Virus record (IMG/VR): IMGVR_UViG_3300013116_000028
Coordinates: 1 to 37,994 of that record
Reading direction: 5' to 3' (one strand)
DNA length: 37,994 bases
DNA from: a virus
The notes beneath the pieces were generated by a model. The model did not search any database. It was not told where the DNA came from and saw only the letters and a program-made list of their open reading frames with translations. Positions 6,350 through 27,142 of the stretch are shown here, in pieces. The translations under genes were made by a program, and so were the position numbers. Within the stretch, counting starts at the first letter, position 1. Every line of letters begins with the position of its first letter.

Positions 6350-9300
6350 TAGTTACCTGTCCTTAATGTCGCAGGCGCAAATTGAGAAAGATTGGAAGTA
6401 TTCACACTTTCAATATTACTAAAATACCTGTCGTATACATTTCCAAAGTCTGGGAATGTCAAAAGTTGCAAAAGCCCGATCTCCCATTGACGTGAAAGAT
6501 CTTGATTCCTTGTGTAAGAAAGTCTCAAATATGAGCGATTACCGGTGGCTTCGGCTCGTGCTAAAAGACTTTGGGCTATCCCGTCATGCAACTGTAAATA
6601 ACGTTGGATAAGGGGAATCTCTGGACGATAAGCAAATGCTTCATCTTCGACTATTAATCTAAAGCCTTCCAAAATTTTCTTCTGTGTAATTGGGTCACCA
6701 ATCTTATTAAACTCACTAGCCCACATCGGATTTTTGCGAGATAGTTCCGTAACAAAATTTCGTCGCTGAGTCCACAAGTCAAAGTTTGATTGTGCATTAA
6801 GACTTCCCGAACCACCGGCTTGCATTCGCTTATTCAATTCATTGGTTAACGAATTGCGAAACACCCGGTACTCTCTCCAACCTTTATTAGATCCCGCTTC
6901 ATGTAAGAAATCTTCAGGCGAGAGAGTGTCACGTCGGCCTTCTTGTCGTTCTATCTGTGCAATAGCTTTGTTGTATGCGAACTGCACATCTATAGCACCG
7001 ACTTCGCCAGTTATAAATGCCCCTAATTCAGGGTATTCCGTAGCCATAGCTTTATGGTCTTCGTAGTAACGATGTCCTTCAAGCGACCCTGCTATGACCC
7101 CATCAGCGAGTGTTCGCCGTGCTGTAGCTGCCCAGAGTTCTGGATGGTTTTCCATCAACCAAAGATCAGCTACCTCAGCACCGTATTCTTTTTCGGTGCG
7201 CCAGAACTCTGAAAGGATCGGCCAATACGGTGACTGTTGTTGATAGGAAACTGGTATTGCCAAAGACCGAAGCATCCTCATCGAGTAAATCATTTTGGTT
7301 CGGCGCTCTACTTCATCGAGTAGTCGTTTAGCTCCTGCTTCAGTGTTCGGTAGAAGATTCCCTTGTATGTATTGTTCGGCAAGAATATCTTGCAGCACTC
7401 TCGCCGCTGTCGCTGCTTTCCGATCAGTGTCAAGACCGGCCACTGATGCAGCGCTCTTTATCCAAGAAGGTGTATGGGCAGCAGCGTAGCGTTCCAACAC
7501 ATTGCCTCCCTCTACTAAACCGTAAGGGAACAGAAAATCGAGAGACTCATAAATGTCAGGGTTCTGAATTGAAAGTTCACTTGCGGCAAACGAAACTATC
7601 GGCCCAGTTCCCGCAAAGCCACCGATTAACGAAGCTGAACGTAGATTTAAATCGACTGGCATTTTAGAAGCTACAGAAAGACTGCCAAAGAGTTTGTGTG
7701 AACCAAAGAACTTTGCGTCAATTTCGTAATCAAAGACATTAGGTAACTGGACCATCATTATGCTTTGTCCGTTTTCATCTTCGGCTGTTGCTACAGTCCA
7801 AAGTTTCAACATTCTGAAAACAAACACTGGGTTTTCAGCAGCTATACCGAACCATCGTGTTGTCACTTCTTGCCATGCACCAAAGAACGGGGAGATTTCT
7901 CCAACTAATTCTTCAAACTTTGAACGGTTAGCCAAATCGTAAAGAACATCTTTGGTTTGTTGAAGAGCGCTAGCTCTTGTTCTGTTAACTACACCTTTGA
8001 GAGCCTCGGGGCTAATTCGATAGTTGACACCTTCTATATCGTCTAAGCGATATAGCTGAAGATTTTCAAAGATTTCACGTGTGTAAATGCTTTCGTAAAG
8101 AGTGCCTCGTGAAAGATAATCTTCGACCATTGTCAGATTTTCGAAGATGCCGTCAAGCAAACCTTTGTACCGGTCAATAATATTTTTGCTTTGCATGGCA
8201 TCAATAAACGACGAATCGGTAACAACTTTACCGAAGTCCCCGATACCGTTGGATGCCCACGAAAACTGACCCCTAAGATCAGACCGAACTGCGGTTCCTG
8301 CCAAGTGACGAAACTTTGGACCCCGCTCTTCAGAGACAGCAGTTCTTCGCATCTGTTCGATTATGTCTGTGCTTAAAGTACGGGCAATCAGAACATTCGT
8401 AGATTCGTTGCCGAGAGATTTTTCGACAACATCAACCCATGAATGTTCAAAAATTTCTAGTGTGCCGGGGCCACGAAGATCTTGTCTTACACTGTCCCAG
8501 TCAATTACCCGTTGCCATTGGCGACCTGCGTCAGTTTCATTAAATGGGCGCAACTGACGCACATTATCGGTATCACCAATCCACCGTGGACCTTCAAACC
8601 GTCTCTGGTATAGGTCCTCAAAAAATTCCTGCGGAGTGTAAACAGAACTTGTCGCCTGTCGATATTGTTGAGCGAGTTGCTTATATAAGGCCCAAAAATC
8701 TTCGTGCCGTTGGTTTAACTTTCTGATACCAGCGGCTACTTCAACATTCCACGAAATGGGGTTGCCTTGTATTAGGGATCGTCTTGCTTCATCGAAAACA
8801 TCTATGGAACTTGGCAAGATACTGTTTGCTTCGTACCCCATTTTTACTGCTAATTCGTAAAGCCCATCCCCAATTCCTCGATCAAATCCGTGCCACGCTT
8901 CGGGAAGAAGTTCTTCCACATTATTAGCACGCATCCACTTAACAATTTCATTAGGATCATATCCCCCCACTCTTTCTGTTTCCGAAAATACTTTCGCCCA
9001 CAATTGTTGAGCAAGATTTGTTTTATCGAGATCCTGTGGAATCACGTGGCGAATTAAGAAATCGTCATACGCTTTAGAAAAATTAGCTTCTTCGTATTGG
9101 TTCAATATGTCGTATTGGTGAGCGCCTTGGAATTTTTCGAAACGTCTTTGCACATCGGCTTCAGCGTCAAGTTGTGCTCTTGCCATTGGATTAGCTGATA
9201 TTCCACGTCGCCAAATTTCTTGTTGCTGCGGAGTGTTACCGAACGCTTTATCTACACGTGTGGACCCAACTTGTGTTGACCCGTAACCCCACTCGTTTAG

Positions 9301-12300
9301 AATCTCTGCTGCTTCTTCGAGCATAGAAATTGGTTTACCCATGCTCGGATCTAATTTCGCATCACCAACAATTTTGGTTTGATAGTCATTTACAATTTCG
9401 GCACGGGTAGCCAATAGTCGAGCGACTTCGTTGCGATCTTTAATCGTAGTTTGTAGCTGTTCTGCCAGATTTTTTAATGAGCCTTGTGTATCAAGTATCT
9501 GAGTTACATCTTCTGCTTGGATAAAGAACTGTATATCTGGCATCAATGAGCCTTGCATAGGCGGCCAAACAATTAAGTCCAAACCGTCCACATTTACCGC
9601 CTGAAGCTTATTGAACCTATGTTCGATAATAAGTTGGGTTAAATATGAGCTTCTGCTATATACCTCAGTATTAGCAATATCGTCCCAACTAACTCTGTCA
9701 CCACGAAGTGGAACCCCGCTCCGGTCGACGCCATCTCGCCTAGCGCGGAAAGCACGCATATTCCTCATAGCTTTGTCAGAAGCTGGAGTTACCATTGGAT
9801 CGATGAAATACCGCCCAAAGGGTGTGTCCCCTCTAGCTTTAGCACCTAGTTCTTGAATAAGCTGCCAATTTATACGAGCAGCGATATCTCCTGCATTGAT
9901 TAACCCTTCATCTTCTAACAGTCGCCTGTACATCCAAGATTCTGTAGTGCCTGCTTCATTGATCCAACTATTCCACGCTTCATCTCTGACTAACCAATGT
10001 TCAGCTTTTATCTCTGCTACTTCGTCAAGCGCATACTGCGGAAGGTCAGGATATTGTGCCCGCATAAATTCCGAAATATCTAGCCTGTTCGCACGTTCAA
10101 CCAGATCCAACGCTTCTGCCCGCAAAGCCACACCATATGTATCAGCCAATTGGCGACGTGCAAGTTTCGCCAAACTGTCACGGCTGTATGCTGTGTAAAG
10201 TCCAGCCGCAGCAGCAGCGCCTACCGGACCACCAAAGAACCAACCTGATCCAGTCATGGCAAGAGTTCTTATATTCGCACGTTTATTTGCGTACTCTTCC
10301 CCAATCGCATCAGCTACAAACTCTTCTATTGTTCTTTCAAATCCGACCACACCTTCATCGTGTGATCGTTTATAAAACTCGACTTGCTTAACCCAACCTG
10401 CCCCCATATAGCCATCCGGCAACTGCTCGACAAGTTTGTCAGCCACCACAGCGTTTATATCTACACCAGCTTTACGAAGCCAACGAACACGTAATTCATC
10501 GAATGACCCACCAAGACGCCCCAACGCCATCGCAGCCCCCAAATGTGCGATATTGCGTAATTGCGAATCTGTGTTAACTACCATTTGCCAACGTGGGGTC
10601 AACAGTGTGTGACGCTTCCACATTGTTAATGCTTCACGACGTGTCGCTCTAACTATCGCATTTCTGGCACTAACTGAAACATCAAGGTTTTCTCCGTTAG
10701 GTCCGATAATAGTTTTTATATCGCCTTGGAGTACTTGGAAAAGGCGTTGGAACTTGTCCCACCGTGGCATCACTAATGTTTGCCGCATTTGGGACGGAGA
10801 CATTGGTTTATAAATGAATGTCGTTCCACCTAATTCTGGGATTACTACTTCAGTGAAATCACTATTTCCGTATCGTCGTTCTGTGTGTTCTGCTGCATCT
10901 TCTAATAAACGTTTGGCTGCATCAATATCGCCTCGGAGTATTCCTTTCATTGCAGCCGAAACACCGGCGCTTCCCCAATCAATATCTTTAAATATTGGGT
11001 GGGGGGTTACTGCGTTTATTGCACCGTTAAGAGCCGCTTCGTTAAGACGATCAATTTTGATTGCTAATTCATCCCCATACGAATCAAGGAACTCGATCAT
11101 TAGATCATCGACACGTTGCGCTGCTTCTACCCGATCCCGAGGAACAGGCCACGGAGCTTCCGGCGTACCTTTGTAAGTCATAATCGCAAGATCAAGAAGC
11201 GTAAAATCTTCACCACTAGCTAAACGCCGAGGTGTCTCGGGGGGAGCATTTTTTAATGTTGCTTTTCTCTCACGTCTACCCATGCCGGGAGGCACTAAAA
11301 GATTGATACGTCCTAATTCACGGAACATAACGTCGAGTTGGCTAGCAACTGTGCTCCGGTCATGGACGTTTATAACTCCATGAGGAATTTTTTCAGAGAA
11401 CAACCTAACGAAACGACTATTCATCGGACCTGCTAGTGGTCCTGATTTACTGAACAAAGTTTTCGCTAGCACCCCTGTCTTTGTTGACGGTGCAGATGGC
11501 AAAGCTTTAGCTAACGCAGGATTCAACGGAGCCATCGCAGCTTCTATTATTTGATCTGCGACTAAAGAATGAGCTTCAGTAGAACTAAGCATTTCGGGAA
11601 CTGGATCATCGAACGGAGCAGTTCTTGTCTGCATAACATTTGTAGCTATATCTTCTTTGAAACCGAGAGGGGGGATGCGTTCATAGGTTTTAACCAACAT
11701 CCCCACTAATGCATCATCTAGCCCCAAGACTGCTTGCCAAGGGAATTTATCCATTTCCGAAATGCGGTCAATCAATTCCATGTAAGGACTATTGGGATCA
11801 AACCCAGCAAAATCTATGAGATCATTTGCGCTCTCACGAACAAACCCTCTCGCTGGTGGCACGACCGGAAAGAGATCTTCAAAGTCAGTGAAACCCATTT
11901 CCCGACCTAAAGCATGATCGAACCTAACGTGTTCGTACATATCGATTATGTCGCCAGCTTGACGTAAAGCTTCTTCCGATACGTCTAGGCCAAGTTGTGA
12001 CCAAGCCCAAGCTGGAGCATCTGGTTGTGCTTCTGGTATCCGCATTGTTTCCCAGACTTCGTTCATTAAGTCTTCGATAAGCCGTTTGCCTTGGACTTCG
12101 GCCATTTGCGCTAGGGCACGTGGACTAAACAAATAGTTCTTAATATAAAGAGCGTGGGCTGCTTCTTTGGCTTTAAGTGTTAGACGTAACCGTTCGGCAT
12201 TCGCTTTCGAAAGCGCTTCAAAGGACACATTTGTGTCCATTATTTCAGTCGCTTCGTCTAAAATACTGACCTCATCTTCCCCGTAGTTTTTATCTTCTCG

Positions 12301-15300
12301 TCTTACTTTTTCATCGAATTTGCGCTTCCGTATTGCTTCTTCAAGAGCAAGAATGTTTTGTCGTGCGTGTCGAATTTCTCTAAAGTGCCAATGAACCGTA
12401 ACTCTTTCTTGGTTATGTCTAATCTTCATCGAATTGGGTACCCCATATTGCATTTCGTCACCCGGTTCTCTGGTGCGATCTACAACTTTGTCGATGCCTT
12501 CATCACTAAGTTTGAGTGTTTCCTCGAAGTCTCGTCTATAGGAAAAGTCGATGGTATCGGGATCGTCTGGTCGCCTTCTGGGATCAATCTCTAACAGATC
12601 TCCTCCGGTGTCTCTAATACCACGAGGCTCCACAGGTTGTTCTGCATCATAAAGACTTCGAACTTCATCACCAGAAATATTCCTGATAACAGGCGCTTCG
12701 ATATCTCGCAGCAAAGACCAAATGTAAGAAAAGTCTTTTGCTTGTGCCGTCATCGCTGCTTTGACAGCAGGGTTACCTTTTTCTAATCGAATAAGATTGT
12801 AATAAGGAAGCCACGAAGAACCGTCTACGGGGCCACCATTAGCTAGGCGTGCATATATCTGTGCTCGCTGCCAAAGCTGATCTTTGGGCAATACTTTGTA
12901 GAACGGTCCCCATGTAGGCAACTCTTTAAACAAACGTAAAGTTAAACGATCCAAAAACTTTTCAGTTGTATACGATCCTCTTGCCCCAGCCCAACGATTT
13001 TTGCCATACATATCATCGACATACCGGTTCCAATCATCTGGAGACATTTCACCAGCCATCCCCATCAAGGATGATTGCTCACCGAGAACCTCTCGATAAG
13101 CCTCTTGTGCTTCGAGAAGATTATTAGGGATTGCGGCTCTAACGTAATCATCTATCATTTCGTCGGTGGCAGCGACTAAATAGTTAAACCCTGACTGCAT
13201 CGCTTCGAACTCTGCTGGACCCCAAAGACTTACACGGTTTTCAGGAGCATCGAGCCGTCTTTCGATTGCGCCTTCAACAATGATGTCTTCGATAACTTGC
13301 CGTACTTGTTCTATGCGTTGTTCTAAATCTGCATAGGGGTTAGGGCTATCTGCATCTCTTAATGGTGCTGTATTTCGTTGTCGGTCAAGTAAATCCTCTA
13401 TGACGGTAGTTGCTTGATCTACATATATAGCCCACTGTTCTTGTCTTCCTTCGTTAACAGACCAATCGTCCCCAAACTCAGACGAATCAAATGGACGACG
13501 AGCATCTTCGTTCCCCCCAGCTTGTCTTCGTAAAACATCTCTTAGGTAATCATTATCAAGGAAATCATCCCAACCCATACCGGGGAACTGTTCGTCCAAC
13601 CGTTGAATTAATTCTCTCAATTTTCGAGGCCCGACGCTTCCTCGTCCGGGGTGAAGCGCATTCCAGAGATTATTTATTGCATAGTTTTCGCTACCATCTA
13701 TTTCGTTTAAGGAGCGTTCAATAACACGGTTGAGTTCTTCTGTGAGATTTGTTCTAGTTGTTAATCGGTGCGCATCGATTAGATTTTCCAAGGCCATTGT
13801 GAAGCCAGTATTGCGAACAAGTTGTCCTGACTCTGGTGCCTCTGCGACACCTGTCCAACTAGCAAATCCTCTTCCCTCGTCTTCGGCACGTTTCAGCGTT
13901 TCTCTTGCACGTGCTGGCAAAGGGTTGTCAGCCAAAAGAGCTATGAAGCGTCCCCGTAAAGAATAAAGATCGTCAGCTAATTCATGGTATTGCTCAGGCA
14001 ATACCCTGCCCAAACTACTAGTGGGGTCAATATTGAAGCTGTCGGTGTAAGCACCAAGTGTGTCTTCGATGAATTGATCCAAGCTTCGTAAAACTGCGAA
14101 CAAACCCGTAGTGGGTGTCATCGTAACGTCAGCAGTACGCCTGACGGTTTCTTGGAAAGCTTCTTCTAAAGGCAGGTAACCCTCAAAGATTTCGTCTATT
14201 TTTTCGGGGAGCCGATCTAACGTTGGGCCATCAAATAGTCCTTGCTCATCTCCAAAACTTCGAGCATCCCAGTATTTTCCACTACTTAAACCTTCTGCAA
14301 AGTTATCGAATTCTGTTTGGAAGTCCTCAATCATATTGCGAGTGTTATCTTCGAGTGTCCGCCACGGAGAAGCACCTATGCTGTCCGGGTTTAATTCCCA
14401 AATGAAACTGGCTGGGGTAGTGCCCCATCTAGGGTCGAGGCTTGCTTCCCCCGTACCTATCACATGAAGAGGAATATCTCCCTTATTTAATGCAGACTCT
14501 AATTCATCGTCGAATATTGTTTTAATGCGTTCTGCTTCACCGACGTAGCTTGTTAATGTTTCATCCATTGTGGATGGTTGATCGTCCATCCATTTAGGTT
14601 TATACGAATAGTTTTCAAAGAAAAGTTCGTCACGTACACGGCCCGGAGATCCAACTTTTCTGCCGCCCGGAATAGTCAACATCTCTGTGACGCTTCCACC
14701 GAGAAGACGTGTTAAGGCAGGTGCTTCATGTTCCAATATCCAGTTATGTAACTTTTCACCTCCGATGCGAATATCTCTGCGGCTTGGTGTCCGCAAAATA
14801 ATTGACTCCCGCTGTGCTGCCGGACGTTGTGTTTGGATAAACGGTTCCATGTAAGGTCGTTCGCCAAACAACCCGGGGCGCACAACACCATGTTCTAAAT
14901 ATGGTCCAACGCTAGTAATTGAGCCACCCGATGCATCGTGAAGATTCCGTGCTCGTCTATTCAAAACCTTCAACCGTGCGGCTTTTGCTCCTAGATAAGT
15001 TGGGTCAGCCGCAACAGCTAATCCGACGTCCAGAACCCCAGACGTTATGTAATACATATTTGTTTCTTTGAACTCTTTGAGTTCTTCAGGATTGTAAATA
15101 TTTACACCGTTTAACGCCAGCGTCATTGCTTGACCGGGTGAACGGTGCTGTGTCAAATTCCATGCTTCACGCCACGTCGTCGGATCAAATGTCCGGTGAT
15201 TAAACGGGAGCCAACCGTTCATGCTTGCTACACGGGGATCTACTTCTCCAGACCGGATAGCTTGCAAATATTTACTTTGTTCAAAACTAAGTTGATTCAG

Positions 15301-15669
15301 GTTAGCGATAGTGGCAAGAGTCGCAACGGGACGAGCAATCCCATATGTCCATGTGAAATCCAACCCACTGAGCATCAAGTTCCACTGGTCGGCCCCCAGT
15401 TCTTTTCTTACGTCTTCAGGTATCGCTCCTACAGTTGCCCCGATAATACCTTCCGGTCCCATTGTTGCACCTATAAGGCTGCGTTCGGCTGTTCCCGTGC
15501 CGGAAGGTTTCCCTAAAACGTTATCTTCCCACGATTCTATGAAACCTTCGACAACACCAAACTCGTCATCCCCCAATGCACTAATACCATCAACAAAAAA
15601 GTCCGCAGCTTGTATCCCTATATCAGGGATATTGCGGAATATCTTCCAAACCCGACTACCGAAACTCAT
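6349..15669 (-). CDS. Giant 3106-aa virion protein
   Basis: One uninterrupted frame of 9.3 kb, a quarter of the window. It is largely helical and charged, with few low-complexity stretches. A Gly/Ala-rich hydrophobic segment, SGWFFGGPVGAAAAAGLYTAY, lies near residues 1805-1826, and another hydrophobic part near residue 2600 contains SPFFGAWQEVTTRWFG. It starts in an ATGA overlap with the preceding gene. Its position between portal and the other internal proteins suggests a giant ejected or internal head protein. I looked for the T7/N4-type RNA polymerase motifs, because N4 carries a ~3500-aa virion polymerase, and did not find a convincing set. Function is otherwise unknown. Confidence 0.8.
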   Translation of the reverse strand: MSFGSRVWKIFRNIPDIGIQAADFFVDGISALGDDEFGVVEGFIESWEDNVLGKPSGTGTAERSLIGATMGPEGIIGATVGAIPEDVRKELGADQWNLMLSGLDFTWTYGIARPVATLATIANLNQLSFEQSKYLQAIRSGEVDPRVASMNGWLPFNHRTFDPTTWREAWNLTQHRSPGQAMTLALNGVNIYNPEELKEFKETNMYYITSGVLDVGLAVAADPTYLGAKAARLKVLNRRARNLHDASGGSITSVGPYLEHGVVRPGLFGERPYMEPFIQTQRPAAQRESIILRTPSRRDIRIGGEKLHNWILEHEAPALTRLLGGSVTEMLTIPGGRKVGSPGRVRDELFFENYSYKPKWMDDQPSTMDETLTSYVGEAERIKTIFDDELESALNKGDIPLHVIGTGEASLDPRWGTTPASFIWELNPDSIGASPWRTLEDNTRNMIEDFQTEFDNFAEGLSSGKYWDARSFGDEQGLFDGPTLDRLPEKIDEIFEGYLPLEEAFQETVRRTADVTMTPTTGLFAVLRSLDQFIEDTLGAYTDSFNIDPTSSLGRVLPEQYHELADDLYSLRGRFIALLADNPLPARARETLKRAEDEGRGFASWTGVAEAPESGQLVRNTGFTMALENLIDAHRLTTRTNLTEELNRVIERSLNEIDGSENYAINNLWNALHPGRGSVGPRKLRELIQRLDEQFPGMGWDDFLDNDYLRDVLRRQAGGNEDARRPFDSSEFGDDWSVNEGRQEQWAIYVDQATTVIEDLLDRQRNTAPLRDADSPNPYADLEQRIEQVRQVIEDIIVEGAIERRLDAPENRVSLWGPAEFEAMQSGFNYLVAATDEMIDDYVRAAIPNNLLEAQEAYREVLGEQSSLMGMAGEMSPDDWNRYVDDMYGKNRWAGARGSYTTEKFLDRLTLRLFKELPTWGPFYKVLPKDQLWQRAQIYARLANGGPVDGSSWLPYYNLIRLEKGNPAVKAAMTAQAKDFSYIWSLLRDIEAPVIRNISGDEVRSLYDAEQPVEPRGIRDTGGDLLEIDPRRRPDDPDTIDFSYRRDFEETLKLSDEGIDKVVDRTREPGDEMQYGVPNSMKIRHNQERVTVHWHFREIRHARQNILALEEAIRKRKFDEKVRREDKNYGEDEVSILDEATEIMDTNVSFEALSKANAERLRLTLKAKEAAHALYIKNYLFSPRALAQMAEVQGKRLIEDLMNEVWETMRIPEAQPDAPAWAWSQLGLDVSEEALRQAGDIIDMYEHVRFDHALGREMGFTDFEDLFPVVPPARGFVRESANDLIDFAGFDPNSPYMELIDRISEMDKFPWQAVLGLDDALVGMLVKTYERIPPLGFKEDIATNVMQTRTAPFDDPVPEMLSSTEAHSLVADQIIEAAMAPLNPALAKALPSAPSTKTGVLAKTLFSKSGPLAGPMNSRFVRLFSEKIPHGVINVHDRSTVASQLDVMFRELGRINLLVPPGMGRRERKATLKNAPPETPRRLASGEDFTLLDLAIMTYKGTPEAPWPVPRDRVEAAQRVDDLMIEFLDSYGDELAIKIDRLNEAALNGAINAVTPHPIFKDIDWGSAGVSAAMKGILRGDIDAAKRLLEDAAEHTERRYGNSDFTEVVIPELGGTTFIYKPMSPSQMRQTLVMPRWDKFQRLFQVLQGDIKTIIGPNGENLDVSVSARNAIVRATRREALTMWKRHTLLTPRWQMVVNTDSQLRNIAHLGAAMALGRLGGSFDELRVRWLRKAGVDINAVVADKLVEQLPDGYMGAGWVKQVEFYKRSHDEGVVGFERTIEEFVADAIGEEYANKRANIRTLAMTGSGWFFGGPVGAAAAAGLYTAYSRDSLAKLARRQLADTYGVALRAEALDLVERANRLDISEFMRAQYPDLPQYALDEVAEIKAEHWLVRDEAWNSWINEAGTTESWMYRRLLEDEGLINAGDIAARINWQLIQELGAKARGDTPFGRYFIDPMVTPASDKAMRNMRAFRARRDGVDRSGVPLRGDRVSWDDIANTEVYSRSSYLTQLIIEHRFNKLQAVNVDGLDLIVWPPMQGSLMPDIQFFIQAEDVTQILDTQGSLKNLAEQLQTTIKDRNEVARLLATRAEIVNDYQTKIVGDAKLDPSMGKPISMLEEAAEILNEWGYGSTQVGSTRVDKAFGNTPQQQEIWRRGISANPMARAQLDAEADVQRRFEKFQGAHQYDILNQYEEANFSKAYDDFLIRHVIPQDLDKTNLAQQLWAKVFSETERVGGYDPNEIVKWMRANNVEELLPEAWHGFDRGIGDGLYELAVKMGYEANSILPSSIDVFDEARRSLIQGNPISWNVEVAAGIRKLNQRHEDFWALYKQLAQQYRQATSSVYTPQEFFEDLYQRRFEGPRWIGDTDNVRQLRPFNETDAGRQWQRVIDWDSVRQDLRGPGTLEIFEHSWVDVVEKSLGNESTNVLIARTLSTDIIEQMRRTAVSEERGPKFRHLAGTAVRSDLRGQFSWASNGIGDFGKVVTDSSFIDAMQSKNIIDRYKGLLDGIFENLTMVEDYLSRGTLYESIYTREIFENLQLYRLDDIEGVNYRISPEALKGVVNRTRASALQQTKDVLYDLANRSKFEELVGEISPFFGAWQEVTTRWFGIAAENPVFVFRMLKLWTVATAEDENGQSIMMVQLPNVFDYEIDAKFFGSHKLFGSLSVASKMPVDLNLRSASLIGGFAGTGPIVSFAASELSIQNPDIYESLDFLFPYGLVEGGNVLERYAAAHTPSWIKSAASVAGLDTDRKAATAARVLQDILAEQYIQGNLLPNTEAGAKRLLDEVERRTKMIYSMRMLRSLAIPVSYQQQSPYWPILSEFWRTEKEYGAEVADLWLMENHPELWAATARRTLADGVIAGSLEGHRYYEDHKAMATEYPELGAFITGEVGAIDVQFAYNKAIAQIERQEGRRDTLSPEDFLHEAGSNKGWREYRVFRNSLTNELNKRMQAGGSGSLNAQSNFDLWTQRRNFVTELSRKNPMWASEFNKIGDPITQKKILEGFRLIVEDEAFAYRPEIPLIQRYLQLHDGIAQSLLARAEATGNRSYLRLSYTRNQDLSRQWEIGLLQLLTFPDFGNVYDRYFSNIESVNTSNLSQFAPATLRTGN

Positions 15670-17835: not shown

Positions 17836-19767
17836 TTACCTCGCCAAAAGTTCTGCGTCACCCGTAAGCCAAGTCGGACGCCACTGTCGATTGTTAACTA
17901 TAGTCGGCATATAAAGTTTCTCTAAATTATGTTCGAGAAACCATTGTGCCATAACGCAGTCATCCGTGCGTGAACCGGTCCCTTCAGCATTCCAGCGTGT
18001 TACTTCGTTGACGAGAAGTAGCGAATGAGGTCTTGCTTCAGTGTTCTGTTTACCGGGCAAACGCACTCTGCCGACACGCCATAATGGAGCGAGCATTTGC
18101 ACTCCGTATTTGGGGTCGCCTTTATTTTTAGAATGCGTGTAATGAGGGATAAGTTGGACATTTCGTAATGCCGCCCAGCGTCGGAAATGGTCGTATTGGA
18201 GAATGAACTTCTGTGCAGCGTTAGCTTCAATCACCCAATGAGTAATCGGGTGCCCCATATCGTTGCTTATCTGCCACCAATCCTCGGCTACACCCGTGAA
18301 TCGTTGTTGTTCATGGCTCCAATCCAAAAAGGACGGTGCATCCATCTTACGCCGATATGACTCCAAAAGGTAACGAAACTCTGTTTCGGGGTTATACGCC
18401 CAACATTGGATAGCCCAATAGTTCGCTGGAGAGGGATCTGCTGTTGCTATAACAAACATTTCACCACTCACATTTTGTGGTAACTCCCACAAACCTCGGT
18501 CATTATCCCAACATCCGGGGTGGTGTACCCCATCTTTACCCGGTCCGCCGGTCACCCAAAGGGGGTCTACCAGCACATTGGCAGGGTTTACATCCAACTG
18601 CTGATAAAGAATTTCGAATCTATCAGGCGTTTGTGCTTTGATATGCCGTAATCGTCGCCAAGGTAACCGCCTCGGATACAAGAGGCATCCTTCGGGCCAC
18701 GGTTCTGCATGTGGTTTGTGTGTTTCAGGATCACCTGAACAAATCTCTTCATAATGTGCTTGATATTTGAGATGAGCGTATTTTCTCCATTCGTCTGGAG
18801 CGTCTTCTGGGTCAAATTCGTCGAGTTCGTAGTCGTCCGGGGGCGCAACTTTATCAAGTGCGTATCGGTAAATGTCGTCAGCGGACATTCGCTGTCCTTG
18901 TAATACGAGTAATCCACCGGGTTCGAGCCGAGTTTCAGCCACTTCATCCCACCATCTTCGCATATCTTCACGGGCCTCAGCGGATCTCATCTTTCGTGGG
19001 TCGTATACGTCGTCCCATATCACTAGATCGAAACGGCCACCCAAGAAACCAGAGTCCATTCCGAACGCAGACCACGTTGGTTCTTTTTGGGAAAGGGGTG
19101 TGTCGTCTTTTTGTAAAACAGTGAATGCTTCGGCCCGCCAGATTTCTGACGAATCTGGCTTGAACATGCCGAAGTCCTCTTGCAACGTAGCCTCAGCGTC
19201 AACCGCTAAGTTAAGTCGAACATCGTTCAACTCTGCTTTTACAGGGTGCGCTCGATCAAGTTCGGCACGCAACCTGCGGCAATACCATTCTGCTAGTCGT
19301 TGTGTTGAGGAACCGATCATCCCACGGATAGCTCGGTTACGCACAGTTGCCCATGCGGGTAATACTTTAGCAAAGAATGTTGATTTTCCCGTACCGGGGG
19401 GAGCGTTAATTACGACGTACTCTTCGTATTCTGTCTCCATGAGACCCATAATGCGTTCGGTTGCTTCAACTTGCCACGGTTGTAAAATAATCCCGAAATA
19501 CCTTTTGGCAAAGATTTCGATATTATCGTAAGCAGCCTGCGCCTCGGGACAAAGTTCATCATATTTAGGTACCTCCGGTTGAATTGTTTTGCCGAGGGCT
19601 TCTTGGGCGGCGATGTAATTTCTCGGGGCTTTGTCCCCTTCTGCGTCTCGGCAAGCGTGGTAAGAAATGTCGCATTCTTTTGCTGCGGCATAAAGCGATT
19701 TCCCCTGACGGCGAAGAGCTTGGTAATCCGCCCATTTCTCTATAGTTATTGCTTTCCCTGATGGCAT
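17836..19767 (-). CDS. terL: Terminase large subunit (packaging ATPase-nuclease)
   Basis: 643 aa. Walker A is NAPPGTGKST (121-130) and Walker B FDLVIWDD (246-253). The nuclease acidic residues are likely D443 in TADPS, E513 in VIEAN and D601/D602 in RTDDCVM. It packages DNA through the portal and cuts concatemers. Residues 11-45 (WADYQALRRQGKSLYAAAKECDIS...) look like a helix-turn-helix, a fold normally carried by the small terminase subunit; no separate small subunit gene is apparent next to it, so recognition may be built in. A nine-base gap separates it from the Cys-rich gene upstream. Confidence 0.93.
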   Translation of the reverse strand: MPSGKAITIEKWADYQALRRQGKSLYAAAKECDISYHACRDAEGDKAPRNYIAAQEALGKTIQPEVPKYDELCPEAQAAYDNIEIFAKRYFGIILQPWQVEATERIMGLMETEYEEYVVINAPPGTGKSTFFAKVLPAWATVRNRAIRGMIGSSTQRLAEWYCRRLRAELDRAHPVKAELNDVRLNLAVDAEATLQEDFGMFKPDSSEIWRAEAFTVLQKDDTPLSQKEPTWSAFGMDSGFLGGRFDLVIWDDVYDPRKMRSAEAREDMRRWWDEVAETRLEPGGLLVLQGQRMSADDIYRYALDKVAPPDDYELDEFDPEDAPDEWRKYAHLKYQAHYEEICSGDPETHKPHAEPWPEGCLLYPRRLPWRRLRHIKAQTPDRFEILYQQLDVNPANVLVDPLWVTGGPGKDGVHHPGCWDNDRGLWELPQNVSGEMFVIATADPSPANYWAIQCWAYNPETEFRYLLESYRRKMDAPSFLDWSHEQQRFTGVAEDWWQISNDMGHPITHWVIEANAAQKFILQYDHFRRWAALRNVQLIPHYTHSKNKGDPKYGVQMLAPLWRVGRVRLPGKQNTEARPHSLLLVNEVTRWNAEGTGSRTDDCVMAQWFLEHNLEKLYMPTIVNNRQWRPTWLTGDAELLAR

Positions 19768-19776
19768 ATCAGCCCC

Positions 19777-20049
19777 TTATTGGCAAGATTCACAAATCTC
19801 TGGATTTTCTAAATCACATTCGATTACTTCGTCATCATCAAAAGGATCTACTTCTAGTCGTTCCCCCATCAATTCAGGGTTCTGTTCAAAAACTTCCATA
19901 AGTGTCAGCGGCTCCACATCTACAGGTTCTCCATAATCAAAACAAAAACAGTCATCGGCACAGTCAGGGCAATAATCGCAAGCACAGTCGTAATGATAGA
20001 AGTGACAAATACATTCTTCTTCTTCACAATCACAACCGTAAATAACCAT
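19777..20049 (-). CDS. 90-aa cysteine-rich acidic protein
   Basis: Thirteen cysteines: ten in residues 6-36 (C6, 8, 13, 15, 22, 24, 27, 30, 34, 36) as CxC and CxxC pairs, and three near the end (78, 86, 89). Between them is a Glu/Asp-rich stretch. No signal peptide, so it is probably cytosolic and may bind several metal ions or an Fe-S cluster. Its ATG shares a base with the ferredoxin stop (TAATG), so translation is coupled. It might supply or protect iron or zinc for the ferredoxin or other phage metalloproteins; that is inference. No family recognised. Confidence 0.75.
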   Translation of the reverse strand: MVIYGCDCEEEECICHFYHYDCACDYCPDCADDCFCFDYGEPVDVEPLTLMEVFEQNPELMGERLEVDPFDDDEVIECDLENPEICESCQ

Positions 20050-20291
20050 TACCCAGAACTTACTTCAATGTAAATACATTCCCCCGGACACTCTTCCGCT
20101 GATTCTATAACAGCTTCCAAATCGTCGTCTTTGAAGTTCGCTAACCCAAACGCCCCACCCGGGTCGTCGAACACATGCCCGTTTTCTTGCACATAGGCAA
20201 GCCCGTCATCTCGCATAACGAAAACTTCAGGACATATTTCTGCACACAACCCATCACCGGTACAGAGATCTTGATCGATCCAGACTTTCAT
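20049..20291 (-). CDS. Ferredoxin with a single Fe-S cluster, Asp-type ligand set
   Basis: 80 aa. The motif C10-TG-D13-GL-C16-AEI-C20-P, with C68-P near the C-terminus, matches small one-cluster bacterial/archaeal ferredoxins. The second cysteine is replaced by Asp, as in Pyrococcus furiosus ferredoxin, where CxxDxxCxxxC binds a [4Fe-4S] cluster that converts easily to [3Fe-4S]. It carries electrons in the cytosol; the partner is unknown. There is an extra C72. Start and stop are shared with Cys-rich genes on both sides (TAATG twice). Phage ferredoxins are known mainly as plant-type [2Fe-2S] proteins in cyanophages; this is a different class. Confidence 0.88.
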   Translation of the reverse strand: MKVWIDQDLCTGDGLCAEICPEVFVMRDDGLAYVQENGHVFDDPGGAFGLANFKDDDLEAVIESAEECPGECIYIEVSSG

Positions 20292-20553: not shown

Positions 20554-20871
20554 TTAACAACCCATATCTTTTCGTAACTGCTCCCACACTGACCATTGAG
20601 ATTCTGTCCAGTTATGGTCGATTGTATTGTAAAGCTGAGAACACTGGGCACCATACCCCGTTCCCTGCAACAACGCAGGAATCTCAGGTTCCGGGTCAGA
20701 CCCAAAAGGCCACCACATCAACAAAGCACCAATAGCGGTAGCAATAGCTACCCCAGCAGCAGTAATCGCTTTAATAATCTTTTTTATTGCTTCTGACCAA
20801 GCATCCGCTTTATCAGCAACATCCTCAATAGTCACAACAATTCCAACTGGACAGGAGAAGGAACACCCCAT
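20554..20871 (-). CDS. Small membrane protein, about 105 aa
   Basis: One clear hydrophobic segment (about residues 33-53, IKAITAAGVAIATAIGALLMWW) follows a charged helix and precedes a C-terminal soluble part with WTESQWSVWEQLRKD. It overlaps the methylase-like gene by 40 bases if the ATG at 20871 is used; an internal GTG near residue 13 would shorten the overlap, and neither has a strong ribosome site. It could be a membrane-anchored spanin or holin-like accessory or a host-interaction protein. The lysis genes are elsewhere, so I leave function open. Confidence 0.55.
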   Translation of the reverse strand: MGCSFSCPVGIVVTIEDVADKADAWSEAIKKIIKAITAAGVAIATAIGALLMWWPFGSDPEPEIPALLQGTGYGAQCSQLYNTIDHNWTESQWSVWEQLRKDMGC

Positions 20872-21413
20872 TGAGAAGCCATCGCTTCCGCAACCCCCGA
20901 ATATGTCAGACTTCTCGTTTTCGCTCTATCAGGTGAAGGCCACATAAGCCAAGACTTCTGCTCTCTCCCCCTAACAACATTCGTAGACCTCAACATTGGC
21001 AGATTTTTTAACCATAAACAAGTCCGTTTAAGTTCCCCGTGACCGAACTGATAAGGATTAAAAATTTGGTCCGGTTTACGAATATGGGTACTAATCAAAC
21101 CCACCGGATTTTCTATACAGATTCTGTCAATAGGCGCTTCCATCAACAACCTGACAAAATCCAACGCTTCACGCTGTTCTTCACGTTTATCAGGAAACCA
21201 CCTCGCCCCCGACACCGTTAAATGCGTACATGGCGGAAACGCAATCATCAGATCCCAGCCATCCCCCAAAATATCTGACACATCACCCTGATAATGACTA
21301 TTCAGAGGGTCGCCCTCCGAAGGCAACAAATCGCAACTAACAGCATCATGCCCCCGTTCCACAAAGGAATCTCGCACACGACCAGAAAACTCGCAAGCAA
21401 CAAGAACTTTCAT
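20832..21413 (-). CDS. Cytosine-C5-methyltransferase-like protein
   Basis: 193 aa with a Rossmann-type start (ACEFSGRVRDSF, 6-17), an acidic motif II (SCDLLPSEG), the catalytic-type PPC (60-62) and ENP (101-103). These are motifs I, II, IV and VI of DNA cytosine-C5 methyltransferases. It is about half the usual length and shows no target-recognition domain, as in many short phage relatives; it may be a DNA-modifying enzyme with an altered reaction. I chose the ATG at 21413 because the 20 extra upstream residues are a shadow of the preceding small gene. Likely role: protecting phage DNA from restriction. Confidence 0.75.
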   Translation of the reverse strand: MKVLVACEFSGRVRDSFVERGHDAVSCDLLPSEGDPLNSHYQGDVSDILGDGWDLMIAFPPCTHLTVSGARWFPDKREEQREALDFVRLLMEAPIDRICIENPVGLISTHIRKPDQIFNPYQFGHGELKRTCLWLKNLPMLRSTNVVRGREQKSWLMWPSPDRAKTRSLTYSGVAEAMASQWGVPSPVQLELL

Positions 21414-21420
21414 TTTCCGT

Positions 21421-21546
21421 CTACGAAGGTGAGAGTTTCCCATCATTAATACGAGACTGATTGCCATCACCACGCATCAAACGCCAAATCTCTTCAGCCT
21501 CAATCTGGGAACGCTCCCTCTCCACAATCATTTTCTTTTCAGCCAT
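21421..21546 (-). CDS. 41-aa charged protein, first gene of leftward operon
   Basis: Starts MAEKKMIVERERSQIEAEE and is mostly charged helix. GGAG lies 8 bases before the ATG. It is the first ORF after the non-coding divergence region, seven bases before the methylase-like gene. No family recognised. The upstream extension to 21705 is Cys/Pro-rich and is rejected because it runs through structured leader sequence. Confidence 0.55.
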   Translation of the reverse strand: MAEKKMIVERERSQIEAEEIWRLMRGDGNQSRINDGKLSPS

Positions 21547-21900
21547 CAAAAACTCCAAAAATTGAGTGAACCCCCAGACCTGACATGATACAGTACAAAC
21601 GCACTCGCCGCTAACACCGGTCCGATCGCCCGTCAGAGGGGCATCTGACTCCGTGTCCAGACACGACGGCCCAACACAAACCGGGGGGCACGGAGCGACC
21701 AGCACAGAGAGGCTAGGTCAAGGCAAGAGAGGCCCCAACACTCGGAGGATACCAAGGAATAAACCACACACCAAACAAACAACTGAACCAAACCCACCAA
21801 AACAACGTATAACACGTGTAAGAAAGGGCAGGGCCTCGGCACATCCCCCCTTACGAACCAAACAAACGAAGTTAACCACACGGGGGTAGGAAGACTAAAG
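21547..21900 (-). promoter_or_regulatory. Leader of the leftward operon, A/C-rich on the + strand
   Basis: No convincing gene. From about 21660 to 21890 the + strand is strongly A/C-rich and poor in T, so the leftward RNA would be G/U-rich. It contains inverted repeats GTCAGA/TCTGAC (21632-21637 with 21644-21649), CTCCGTG/CACGGAG (21649-21655 with 21689-21695) and CGTGT/ACACG (21652-21656 with 21661-21665); the last two compete. ACACGTGT near 21810 is a perfect palindrome and could be an operator. Leftward promoters must lie here, but no good -35/-10 pair stands out. Confidence 0.5.
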
Positions 21901-21910
21901 ATTTAACGAT

Positions 21911-21930
21911 GGGGGTAGATCCTGGATTTT
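21911..21930 (+). repeat. GGGGGTAG repeat plus first CCTGGATTTT box
   Basis: GGGGGTAG at 21911-21918 is a direct repeat of 21882-21889. CCTGGATTTT at 21921-21930 recurs at 22844-22853 and 24240-24249. All three boxes are on the + strand of the rightward region; the second and third share a 21-base context with only three differences (22833-22853 and 24229-24249). The boxes precede hairpins in each case. Function unknown; an RNA-level site such as an antitermination or protein-binding box is possible. Confidence 0.5.
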
Positions 21931-22136
21931 GAAGGGTTGTGTGGGTGTGGGGGGTGTGAGCTTTAGGGATTAATGAGCCTCCGGCGGCCACGGAGTGATC
22001 CGTGGACGATCAGCCGGGCGCTCCCGGCGGAGCAGAGGATTAGGCGTGTCCGACAATCCCGCATCTTTCCCAAGTGCGGGGAAAGAAGTCGGGGATTGCC
22101 TCGGGGATGCTGCGGGCCTTTTGGAGCTTACGCAAA

Positions 22137-22256
22137 CGATCACATCCGAGTTCGAACATCGACAGGGAGAACGAGACGAGTTTCTCCCGGCCCCTGTTTT
22201 GGGGGGCCAGAAACTCTAAGGGAGAATGAGAACCAGTCGATGCTCGGATGTGACCG
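22137..22256 (+). other. Four-part nested stem within the RNA candidate
   Basis: TCACATCCGAG (22140-22150) pairs with 22243-22253 over 11 bases, CATCGAC (22157-22163) with 22236-22242, GAGTTTCT (22178-22185) with 22209-22216, and GGCCCC (22189-22194) with 22203-22208. The 3' sides of the first two and of the last two are contiguous, with bulges TTCGAA and CCC on the 5' side. The internal loop carries GGGAGAACGAGA on one side and GGGAGAATGAGA on the other. The strand is not settled: one flanking A/C mismatch would be a wobble pair on the minus strand. Confidence 0.7.
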
Positions 22257-22295
22257 CCCGTTGGGTTCAAGCACTTGTAAAGTACCTCCTTGCGG

Positions 22296-22350
22296 ATCCG
22301 CTCGTGCAATCTCATTTGACTAGAGCGGATTACTCTGCGGGAGAGATTGC
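22296..22350 (+). other. Possible H-type pseudoknot (ABA'B')
   Basis: ATCCGCTC (22296-22303) is the perfect complement of GAGCGGAT (22323-22330), and GCAATCTC (22306-22313) is the perfect complement of GAGATTGC (22343-22350). The order A, B, A', B' is that of an H-type pseudoknot with two 8-bp stems. If both do not form together they are alternative folds. The unit lies inside the long-range stem 22274-22286/22409-22421 and abuts the 15-bp hairpin. Confidence 0.6.
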
Positions 22351-22394
22351 TTTTATGTTACAGAGGGGAGAACAAGAGACTCTGTAACATAAAA
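22351..22394 (+). other. Perfect 15-bp hairpin
   Basis: TTTTATGTTACAGAG (22351-22365) pairs without mismatch with 22380-22394, leaving a 14-base loop that begins GGGAGAACAAGA (22366-22377). That loop motif is the third copy of the motif in the internal loop at 22165 and 22220. No U-run follows the stem, so it is not a simple terminator. Confidence 0.75.
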
Positions 22395-22483
22395 CCCGGC
22401 GGACTGCGGGTACTTGACAAGCACTCGAATTTGCGTTTCGAGGGCGTTAGCCCGCCCAAGGGGGGAGGGAAGGAAAGGGAATT

Positions 22484-22828
22484 ATGCCTGAATTTAGAAG
22501 TGGCTTGAAGTGGGAAGAGTGGGGAGAGAGAGTTTTCCTTGAACTTGACGAGGCGGGGGAACTCCTAGAGGGCGAGTGCTCTTCTCCTAAGTACTTGCCT
22601 TGGAAAATTGACAAAGTTAACGAGTTTTGGGCGCAACACATGGGACCTTACGACGTTGCTTGGTGTTTTAAGCCTCGGATGCAGCGGTTTTACTACAGGA
22701 CTCCAATTTGGATACAGATTGGGGAGAACGAGGGCGAAGGATACAAGAAGACGGAGCTTAACTTCGAAGAGAGACTGATTTGCGGGCATAGGGCTGAGTG
22801 CAAGGGACAGGAGGTGCTGGATGTTTAA
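22484..22828 (+). CDS. 114-aa protein, first gene of the rightward operon
   Basis: Not recognised. The frame starts MPEFRSGLKWEEWGERVFLE and is Glu/Trp-rich with aromatic clusters (WCFKPRMQRFYYRTPIWIQIG). Two cysteines lie near the end (ICGHRAEC). A purine-rich site (GGAAAGGG) precedes the ATG at good spacing. It is the first gene after the structured region, and the next gene overlaps its last eight bases. A small soluble early protein; function unknown. Confidence 0.65.
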   Translation: MPEFRSGLKWEEWGERVFLELDEAGELLEGECSSPKYLPWKIDKVNEFWAQHMGPYDVAWCFKPRMQRFYYRTPIWIQIGENEGEGYKKTELNFEERLICGHRAECKGQEVLDV

Positions 22829-23195
22829 AGGAATTAGATTTACCCTGGATTTTAAAGAAATTTTCGCCTCCGGCGGGCAACGGAAAAGAGCGCCGTTGCA
22901 TCACGCTCTTTTTTGCGGCAACGTAAACGAACGTTGCCTTCCTTGTGACCTCACTGGTGACCAGTGGAATCAGCATGTAGTTGAACGGATCGAGAGGTTG
23001 AAGGTGTTACAGAACCAGATGTTACAAAACAGGAGGGACGACATGTCCAAAGTTAAATGGGAAACGGTGCCGTTGCATCGTGTTGGTGACGTAAGGAAGC
23101 AGGACCGCTGGTCTTGGGCCTTGGATTTACTGATTGTGGACAAGGTTGTTCACTGGTCGGTAGAAGACCAAACGTTATCCGAACTGACTGATTGA
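22821..23195 (+). CDS. 124-aa protein with attenuator-like sequence near its start
   Basis: AGGAGG stands six bases before the ATG at 22821. A second AGGAGG stands six bases before an in-frame ATG at 23043, which would give a 50-aa product (MSKVKWETVPLHR...), so two products are possible. The first 40 codons overlap a CCTGGATTTT box and several inverted repeats. Residues 32-42 contain CGNVNERCLPC, a possible metal site. No family recognised. Either the front part is a real domain, or it is a regulatory leader peptide for the 23043 gene. Confidence 0.55.
   Translation: MFKGIRFTLDFKEIFASGGQRKRAPLHHALFCGNVNERCLPCDLTGDQWNQHVVERIERLKVLQNQMLQNRRDDMSKVKWETVPLHRVGDVRKQDRWSWALDLLIVDKVVHWSVEDQTLSELTD
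22877..22938 (+). promoter_or_regulatory. Attenuator-like set of competing hairpins
   Basis: GCAACGG (22877-22883) pairs with CCGTTGC (22893-22899). AAAAGAGCG (22884-22892), in the loop of that hairpin, pairs with CGCTCTTTT (22904-22912), which is followed by more T to give a six-T run (22909-22914), an intrinsic-terminator form. GGCAACGT (22917-22924) pairs with ACGTTGCC (22931-22938) right after it. The first two stems exclude each other, as in antiterminator/terminator switches. CGCTCTTT also resembles boxA of antitermination sites. The set lies in the start of a reading frame, so translation could control it. Confidence 0.5.
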
Positions 23196-25781: not shown

Positions 25782-26790
25782 GATGACAAAGTTAGATGCT
25801 GAACATGCCTTATACCGTAAGGCTGCTTGGCATGGGATGGGTAACGTTGGACCTATCGATTGGGAGAAAGCTCGTGAGGCTTTTGACTGGTCTGAGGTTG
25901 AACGAAGCCCGATATTAATTGAGCATCATGGAGTAGAAGAAGTTCTTGAAGGCAGAAATGTTTTGAAGATGGTCAACTATCCATATGCTCATGCTGAAGT
26001 AAGTAATCGATATCAGGTAGTTCAGCATCGGTTCATGGCTGATGATTTAACTGGATTGCTTATCGACACTGGGCTAGTGGAGACTATTGAATCAGTTGGT
26101 ACCTATGATAACGGTGCTGTTGGTTATGTGTCTCTAAAGTTTAAGGAAGACATAGAGATTCCGGGTTGGTCAACAGTTGAATCGATGTTCAATATCGGTA
26201 ACGGACATGACAAAAATATTCCATTGATTGCTACTCAGTCTGCACGGGCTGTTGTGTGTGCCAATACTTTCAAGCTAAACATCTTGGATAAGAACGCTGT
26301 CTTCAAGTTTAAGAAGATGGGTGATCCGCAAGGCATGATGCAAGAAGCTGTTGAAGCATTGTGTGATAGCTATGAAAGACATGAGACATACAAGCAACAG
26401 ATTGAACGTATGTCTAATCAACTATTTGTTGATGAGGAATGGAACAAACTTATTGTTGATCTCATTGGTCCTGCTCCATCGTATGAGAAAGCAATAACTG
26501 ATGTGGTTACTGGCAAACAGTTATCACTACAGGGTTTCAGAAATCAACAAACTCGTTGGGCTAACACTAGACGTGCATTAAATAAACGTTTCCACGAAGA
26601 TCAAGACATAAGGGGTGTGCGTAGCACAAAGTGGGGCGCACTCATGGCTGTTCAAGCATGGGAACAGAAAGATAAAACAGTTAAGGGTGTGAACAGCAGC
26701 CTAGAACGTGACCGTAGGCATCAAGCCAACGTCATGTTCGGCAAGCTACCGATGACTGAGAAAGCTGCCAAGATTCTGGTAGCTAACTAG
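25771..26790 (+). CDS. DUF932-family phage/plasmid-like protein
   Basis: 339 aa. The N-terminal part (ALYRKAAWHGMGNVGPIDW), YQVVQHRFMADDLTGLL and the SARAVVCANTFKLNI block match the DUF932 (TIGR03299, phage/plasmid-like) family, which is widespread in actinobacterial phages and plasmids and usually sits near replication or recombination genes. Biochemical function is not established; some relatives lie beside exonuclease and annealing genes, as here. AAAGGAGAAAAG precedes the ATG. Full length for the family, with no breaks. A strong hairpin follows the stop. Confidence 0.85.
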   Translation: MSHRMTKLDAEHALYRKAAWHGMGNVGPIDWEKAREAFDWSEVERSPILIEHHGVEEVLEGRNVLKMVNYPYAHAEVSNRYQVVQHRFMADDLTGLLIDTGLVETIESVGTYDNGAVGYVSLKFKEDIEIPGWSTVESMFNIGNGHDKNIPLIATQSARAVVCANTFKLNILDKNAVFKFKKMGDPQGMMQEAVEALCDSYERHETYKQQIERMSNQLFVDEEWNKLIVDLIGPAPSYEKAITDVVTGKQLSLQGFRNQQTRWANTRRALNKRFHEDQDIRGVRSTKWGALMAVQAWEQKDKTVKGVNSSLERDRRHQANVMFGKLPMTEKAAKILVAN

Positions 26791-26794
26791 ACCT

Positions 26795-26837
26795 GAGATG
26801 GGGTAGCACTTTGCCCTCCTTGGTGCTACCTCATCTC
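26795..26837 (+). terminator. 15-bp hairpin after the DUF932-like gene
   Basis: GAGATGGGGTAGCAC (26795-26809) pairs with 26823-26837 with a single G/U wobble that fits the + strand. The 13-base loop contains CTCCTT (26816-26821), complementary to the AAGGAG (26854-26859) ribosome site of the next gene. No U-run. It may be a pause or stability element, and the loop could mask the downstream ribosome site. Confidence 0.65.
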
Positions 26838-26866
26838 AATAGATCTCAATAATAAGGAGAAAACAA

Positions 26867-27142
26867 ATGAGTATCTACGCAGCAGTAGAAATAGAAGTCG
26901 GAGAGTTCGCTAATGACAGCGGATTCTGCGACATGGTAGGTGACATCGTTGCTGATGTGATCCGAGACAGTGGCGAAGTTGAAGGCATTGTCACTGACAC
27001 GTTATCAAACGATATTGGTTACTACATAAGAGAACACATGCAGGATAACCCAGCGAAACTTGATCTTGATGACGATAATTTCATCAATGCAGTTGCGGAA
27101 GCCCTGATTGCAATATGTAAGGGAGAACATGTCACAGCTTGA
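26867..27142 (+). CDS. 91-aa acidic protein
   Basis: AAGGAG precedes the ATG by seven bases. The sequence MSIYAAVEIEVGEFANDSGF continues with aliphatic/acidic helices (DIVADVIRDSGEVEGIVTDTL) and ends AICKGEHVTA. No motif recognised. It overlaps the next gene by 14 bases. Confidence 0.65.
   Translation: MSIYAAVEIEVGEFANDSGFCDMVGDIVADVIRDSGEVEGIVTDTLSNDIGYYIREHMQDNPAKLDLDDDNFINAVAEALIAICKGEHVTA

Follow-up and report, generated by a model that had tools for sequence, protein, structure and literature searches.

A new large structured RNA beside a conserved phage RNA at an early/late divergence point, and the likeness of their locus to the Pleft region of cluster A mycobacteriophages

The virus record IMGVR_UViG_3300013116_000028 comprises 37,994 bases, all of which we analyzed and hereafter refer to as the window. 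Left of a central divergence point, the late genes lie on the minus strand and include a terminase gene (17836-19767). The plus-strand early genes to the right encode an SSB, an annealing protein, nucleases, and a RusA-like resolvase. About 1 kb of noncoding sequence separates a DNA methyltransferase gene (20832-21473) from the first early gene (22484-22828). ARAGORN found no tRNA in the window. The minus strand also carries, in the interval from the terminase gene to the methyltransferase gene, a phage-encoded 4Fe-4S ferredoxin (20049-20291; Fer4_15, Fer4_13), as well as a single late-region ORF of 3106 aa (6349-15669) that takes up a quarter of the genome. The window's strongest local fold relative to G+C, at 26701-26880, sits where an ORF that ends at 26790 is separated by a gap from one that starts at 26867.

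Two RNAs, which we call RNA A and RNA B, occupy the noncoding interval together with promoter-like blocks:

21586-21594, plus strand: extended -10-like element TGnTACA(G/C)T before RNA A, a putative promoter
21604-21758, plus strand: RNA A, a conserved structured RNA with an invariant CGCCCGTCAGAGGGGC at 21627-21642
21783-21813, plus strand: promoter-like block before RNA B, (T/C)TGAAC, about 18 nt, then (G/T)ATA(A/G)(T/C)
21835-21844, plus strand: CTCGGCACAT motif just past the second promoter-like block, conserved in relatives
21976-22126, plus strand: 5′ domain of RNA B, with a two-hairpin module, a stem at 22040-22107, and a conserved GGGCCUUUUGGAG at 22114-22126
21988-22005 (GUGA loop) and 22013-22028, plus strand: the two-hairpin module of RNA B, with paired changes
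22140-22253, plus strand: middle arm of RNA B, with helices H1 (22140-22150/22243-22253) and H2 (22157-22163/22236-22242)
22274-22421, plus strand: 3′ domain of RNA B, with closing helix 22274-22286/22409-22421 and a hairpin at 22306-22350
22287-22296 and 22298-22304/22395-22402, plus strand: small hairpin and inner stem of the 3′ domain
22351-22394, plus strand: terminal GUUAC hairpin of RNA B, 15 bp, with a purine-rich 14-nt loop
22484-22828, plus strand: first early gene downstream of RNA B, 114 aa, no known family

An earlier, sequence-only reading of the window had proposed a large structured RNA at the RNA B site on the basis of inverted repeats. All of its repeats that could be identified are present, and the three main ones lie exactly where it had placed them: a perfect 11-bp stem (22140-22150/22243-22253) contained in arms that match at 13 of 14 positions (22137-22150/22243-22256), a long-range stem with 12 of 13 positions paired (22274-22286/22409-22421), and a perfect 15-bp hairpin (22351-22365/22380-22394). 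Its view that they exceed chance was borne out by folding, as the RNA B region of about 500 bases has an RNA minimum free energy of -224.8 kcal/mol (z -6.7) and none of 100 shuffles was as good. The sharpest part, 22272-22424, reaches z -8.2 alone, with 22130-22262 at z -4.9; the stem at 22040-22107 in the 5′ domain is drawn from folding only. The reverse strand of the region scores z -9.3, because inverted repeats fold on both strands. Since an early coding sequence in the same window (25800-26460, 660 nt) also reaches z -4.9, we did not take fold energy alone as proof of an RNA.

The region had also been judged to lack a convincing gene, and our comparison agrees. ORFs overlapping RNA B on the plus and minus strands show similarity to relatives that is short, interrupted, and equal on both strands, a pattern that argues against coding and led us to reject the ORF at 21973-22323 as a gene. 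The first early gene is conserved over all 114 codons, with 59% identity across its full length to its counterpart in the relative L003.

Covariation, not fold energy, is decisive for RNA B as an RNA. We drew relatives from 80 viral contigs found by a terminase scan and 2 found by an early-protein scan. RNA B belongs to class I, which has three distinct members in IMG/VR: the window (with the near-identical L002 and L005), L003, and L019, which is truncated by the end of its contig. A pattern scan designed for class I yielded no members beyond these three. Across the three sequences, 9 of the 21 pairs in the H1/H2 arm (22140-22253) changed on both sides yet remain paired; 96.8% of cells are paired, none of 500 shuffles was as good, and pairing falls to 25-44% when the partner strand is slid. 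For the 3′ domain, alifold of the window and L003 sequences gives a joint closing helix, inner stem, and two hairpins. Four of the five inner-stem pairs are double-changed, and some of the changes run through G-U pairs possible on the plus strand only. Both 5′ hairpins are kept by paired changes in L019 and L082, the first also in L016. Comparison by hand shows a terminal hairpin stem of differing sequence in L016, L008, and L023 with a near-constant GUNAC/GUAAC core. RNA B is a real large structured RNA of the plus strand whose shape is preserved by compensatory changes. The original proposal had named a lack of covariation across homologues as one result that would refute it, and on this point it is upheld.

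A pattern scan for the TTATGTTAC hairpin returned 40 loci, only 2 of them contigs of the phage group and the rest apparently chance. We rejected a -35 box reading of the TTGACA within the closing helix (3′ strand), because no -10 lies at the right spacing and the TTGACA is preserved as part of the helix. Purine repeats (GAGAACGAG / GGGAG) are abundant at 22170-22235 and in loops of L003, L016, L019, and L023. These repeats, in hairpin loops and single strands, could be a protein or anti-Shine-Dalgarno binding feature.

Some hairpins may move, because relatives that are otherwise unlike share the two-hairpin module at 93-97% identity and a GCCTCCGGCGG unit like that of RNA B recurs at 22867. 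Both observations would suit an element that works at the DNA level, either a selfish palindrome array or protein-binding cruciforms, with no RNA function. We consider such an element very improbable in view of the long-range paired changes over 80-150 nt, which would not be expected of scattered palindromes, the variants that need plus-strand G-U pairs, the GNRA loop (GUGA), and the same multi-branched 3′ architecture in the class II RNAs described below. A GCCTCCGGCGG(G/C)C unit with a hairpin after it, the arrangement seen at 21976, is present at 22867-22938 and, in L003, where the first early gene ends; it looks like a mobile palindromic module.

RNA A is conserved across the whole phage group. 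As its fold is no more stable than those of shuffles (z -0.2), its support comes from conservation and covariation: alifold identified 5 pairs changed on both sides (for example, CTCCGTG/CACGGAG versus CTCTATG/CATAGAG), with G-U pairs on the plus strand only. This G-U direction rejects RNA A as a reverse-strand leader of the late operon. The 16-mer CGCCCGTCAGAGGGGC occurs in at least 119 viral contigs, many with the same hairpin in front, and most of its matches in genome contigs look like chance. A 251-base probe around CGCCCGTCAGAGGGGC matches 158 Mycobacterium phage records, with no annotation under the match among the matches listed. A model of RNA A (R1) scores 184 bits in the window, 57-81 bits in diverged marine phages, and about 29 bits in Gordonia phage Coeur and mycobacteriophage Peaches (29.5 bits in Peaches), with E-values that flatter the model because many of the searched loci were preselected by the 16-mer (L044, L057, L042, L047, and L068 came via terminase). 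The R1 search of D29 gave no RNA A match. RNA A is unannotated and absent from Rfam, and it is found in marine phages, Gordonia phage Coeur, and A4 mycobacteriophages. Among 12 chosen actinobacterial genomes, R1 confirms 2. Likely relatives of RNA A were observed in Nocardia and Rhodococcus chromosomes (L251, L261).

The flanks of RNA B are conserved as well. The -10-like element before RNA A is kept in nearly all RNA-A-bearing relatives (TGATACAGT / TGTTACACT / TGCTACAGT), and the block at 21783-21813 is conserved in 21 distinct RNA-A-bearing loci. A standard sigma-70 scan calls neither of the two; the second block is too weak for it, so its promoter status is one that we infer. The RNA B transcript probably starts near 21818, just past this block, and no plus-strand terminator was found directly after RNA B. 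The supported structure, 21976 to 22421, lies within the span of 21961-22453 given by the sequence-only reading, which is slightly narrow with respect to the probable transcript start. Absent from that reading were RNA A next door, the promoter-like block between the two RNAs, and the link to cluster A Pleft RNAs discussed below.

In nearly every relative with enough sequence, RNA A is followed by a strongly folded stretch (z -4.4 or lower). These sequences split into classes I, II, and III plus unclassed ones. The alignment of class II (L008, L020, L009, L214, and L366) has 141 consensus pairs, 18 of them double-changed, and a class II RNA found no blastn match among 50,697 phage records. The class II members (in L008 at 7955-8560, minus strand) are large ornate RNAs at this locus, with many near-perfect stems and no Rfam match. 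Class III comprises L011 and L082, with 79% identity over 228 nt. Its noncoding stretch of 0.8-1 kb (L082 2000-3300 and L011 7300-8400, both minus strand) has a very long closing stem, formed in L082 by GTTTAGCGAGCGATGTTGTTGCGATTC and its complement and altered on both sides in L011.

We built a covariance model (R2) from class II 3′ domains, leaving out every class I sequence, and ran it unfiltered. With filters on, an R2 search of 18 loci gave no match even in the window, so filtering loses this signal and the unfiltered runs are the informative ones. On both strands of the 38-kb window, the sole match with E below 1 was the full-length one at 22275-22420 on the plus strand (E 0.12 in the whole window, E 0.005 in the local 1.5 kb). 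The best local match in L003 was the orthologous site (E 0.05), and in L016 the class II 3′-domain model matched the terminal hairpin alone. Although each match is modest, site, strand, and register agree, which suggests that classes I and II probably have this 3′ domain in common. The shared architecture consists of a GU(A/C)AAG/CUUGAC closing helix, a small hairpin, an inner stem, a hairpin, and a GUUAC/GUAAC hairpin. Most likely, the locus is modular, with a promoter, a constant RNA A, a second promoter-like block, and lastly an ornate, rapidly evolving RNA; phages exchange the 5′ part of this last RNA and retain its 3′ domain.

Searches of known families place RNA B outside all of them. 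At the gathering score, Rfam gave no matches in the window or in 7 relatives, and at E up to 10 over 21400-22900 it returned only miRNA-like and other noise. No family model matched for tRNA, tmRNA, RNase P, or group I/II introns, and none for GOLLD, ROOL, OLE, or HEARO, consistent with what had been guessed from the sequence by eye. At the sequence level, blastn of 21700-22700 against 50,697 phage records found no match. RNA B is new and falls outside every Rfam family. GOLLD and ROOL usually lie near phage tRNAs, and an RNA-only nanocage is a trait of both. A GOLLD or ROOL that had diverged past Rfam recognition would share with RNA B its size class, its phage-borne nature, and, for GOLLD, a variable 5′ and a conserved 3′ part (PMC12286853), but this origin is extremely improbable given the lack of a match to those models at E up to 10, or in the 7 relatives, and of any tRNA nearby.

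Expression data exist for one homologue. RNA-seq of Kampy (A4) showed that an uncalled region upstream of gene 88 has the highest coverage of the genome at all times, accounting for 41% of viral transcription at 5 minutes and 51% at 15 minutes; the study described the region as conserved within A4 only (PMC4626039). The RNA A motif lies in Kampy at 50725-50710, upstream of gene 88 and inside this most-covered region, which is thus linked to the window through RNA A and not through RNA B. In L5, D29, and StarStuff, the most abundant, stable, and processed RNAs come from a segment of about 500 nt that separates Pleft from the first gene; the region is toxic when cloned, and part of it is not deletable and seems essential (PMC5712189). 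RNA A is kin to the Pleft-region motif of A4 phages. The position and the conserved promoter-like blocks of the window locus, with their presumed promoter activity, fit the Pleft layout, and because position and RNA A agree, we regard the locus as being of the cluster A Pleft type.

By analogy with these phages, we favor, with somewhat more confidence than doubt, a reading of RNA B as a Pleft-type noncoding RNA that is made early and in abundance, acts in trans, and has an ornate body that evolves fast. On this reading, a highly structured plus-strand transcript of roughly 450-650 nt, coding for no protein, would be produced early from the 21783-21813 block, perhaps also by read-through from the putative RNA A promoter, and would probably be released by processing. 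Once folded into its 5′ module, H1/H2 arm, and 3′ domain, the transcript would accumulate because it is structured, and it would act in trans on a host target during takeover of a presumably actinobacterial host. The model for this is the abundant, stable, and toxic cluster A Pleft RNAs, which appear to act likewise. Several points count against this reading: the match to the expressed Kampy region is one of RNA A, D29 gave no RNA A hit, class I has only three distinct sequences in IMG/VR, the promoter-like blocks are missed by the sigma-70 scan, and no plus-strand terminator directly follows RNA B. RNA B also ends about 60 nt before the gene, which fits a cis-acting leader as well.

Such a leader is the main rival. 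RNA B would then form the 5′ untranslated region of the early mRNA and regulate that operon through antitermination (of the put or EAR kind), through attenuation, or at the first ribosome site. In its favor, the first early gene follows RNA B immediately, in the same orientation and with no terminator between them. We find this rather unlikely: RNA B is very large and fast-changing, phages that exchange whole 5′ domains also differ in their downstream genes, no conserved element connects RNA B to the ribosome site, and in the cluster A counterpart about 90% of transcripts stop short of the first gene (PMC5712189).

Less likely than the leader, and improbable in our view, is an RNA-primed replication origin, as in the non-RepA prophage origins of cluster A phages. 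The locus lies at the early/late divergence point, and the early genes scanned encode only SSB, annealing protein, nucleases, RusA-like resolvase, and a polymerase exonuclease subunit, with no initiator or helicase recognized. Noncoding RNAs of 400-500 nt are required for replication of the Alma and LadyBird prophages (PMC7157519). These RNAs, however, adjoin parABS and not an early promoter, whereas no ParA or ParB was present among the proteins scanned (part of the ORFs) and no antisense RNA partner was seen at our locus.

More tentatively, the locus might be viewed as a phage "RNA cassette," in which a constant early RNA A, common among actinobacterial phages and overlooked by Rfam, is joined to a slot of interchangeable large ornate RNAs serving as host-directed, RNA-only effectors. 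The cassette would hold at least three classes, with I and II sharing a 3′ domain, would diversify rapidly, and would work in host shutdown or remodelling.

Up to half of early transcription in cluster A mycobacteriophages is noncoding RNA without known function, which had been reported as not conserved outside its subcluster. The RNA A link brings a deep comparative record and secondary structures to this puzzle, and RNA A is possibly more important than RNA B itself. The matching slot in marine phages holds large ornate RNAs, and new families are added to the short list of large natural RNAs. The role of the most abundant early phage RNA becomes directly testable by structure-guided mutants.

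Among known systems, GOLLD (RF01998) resembles RNA B as a large phage RNA with a variable 5′ half and a conserved 3′ half (PMC12286853), and ROOL resembles it as a large ornate phage RNA; RNA B differs from both in having no covariance-model match and no tRNAs nearby. The RNA-based origins of Alma, LadyBird, and RedRock likewise involve a noncoding RNA of 400-500 nt in actinobacterial phages, but they lie beside parABS and serve prophage maintenance, a context that was not seen here among the proteins scanned. The Pleft RNAs of A4 phages and L5 have no shown sequence or structure match to RNA B, RNA A was not found in D29, and the window site differs from the Pleft locus in its central position at a divergence point and in the second promoter-like block that separates RNA A from RNA B. 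In common with our locus, Pleft RNAs follow an early promoter (putative in the window), extend over about 0.5-0.6 kb of noncoding sequence without a canonical terminator, and precede the first early gene, and the A4 phages carry the RNA A motif about 100 nt past their promoter.
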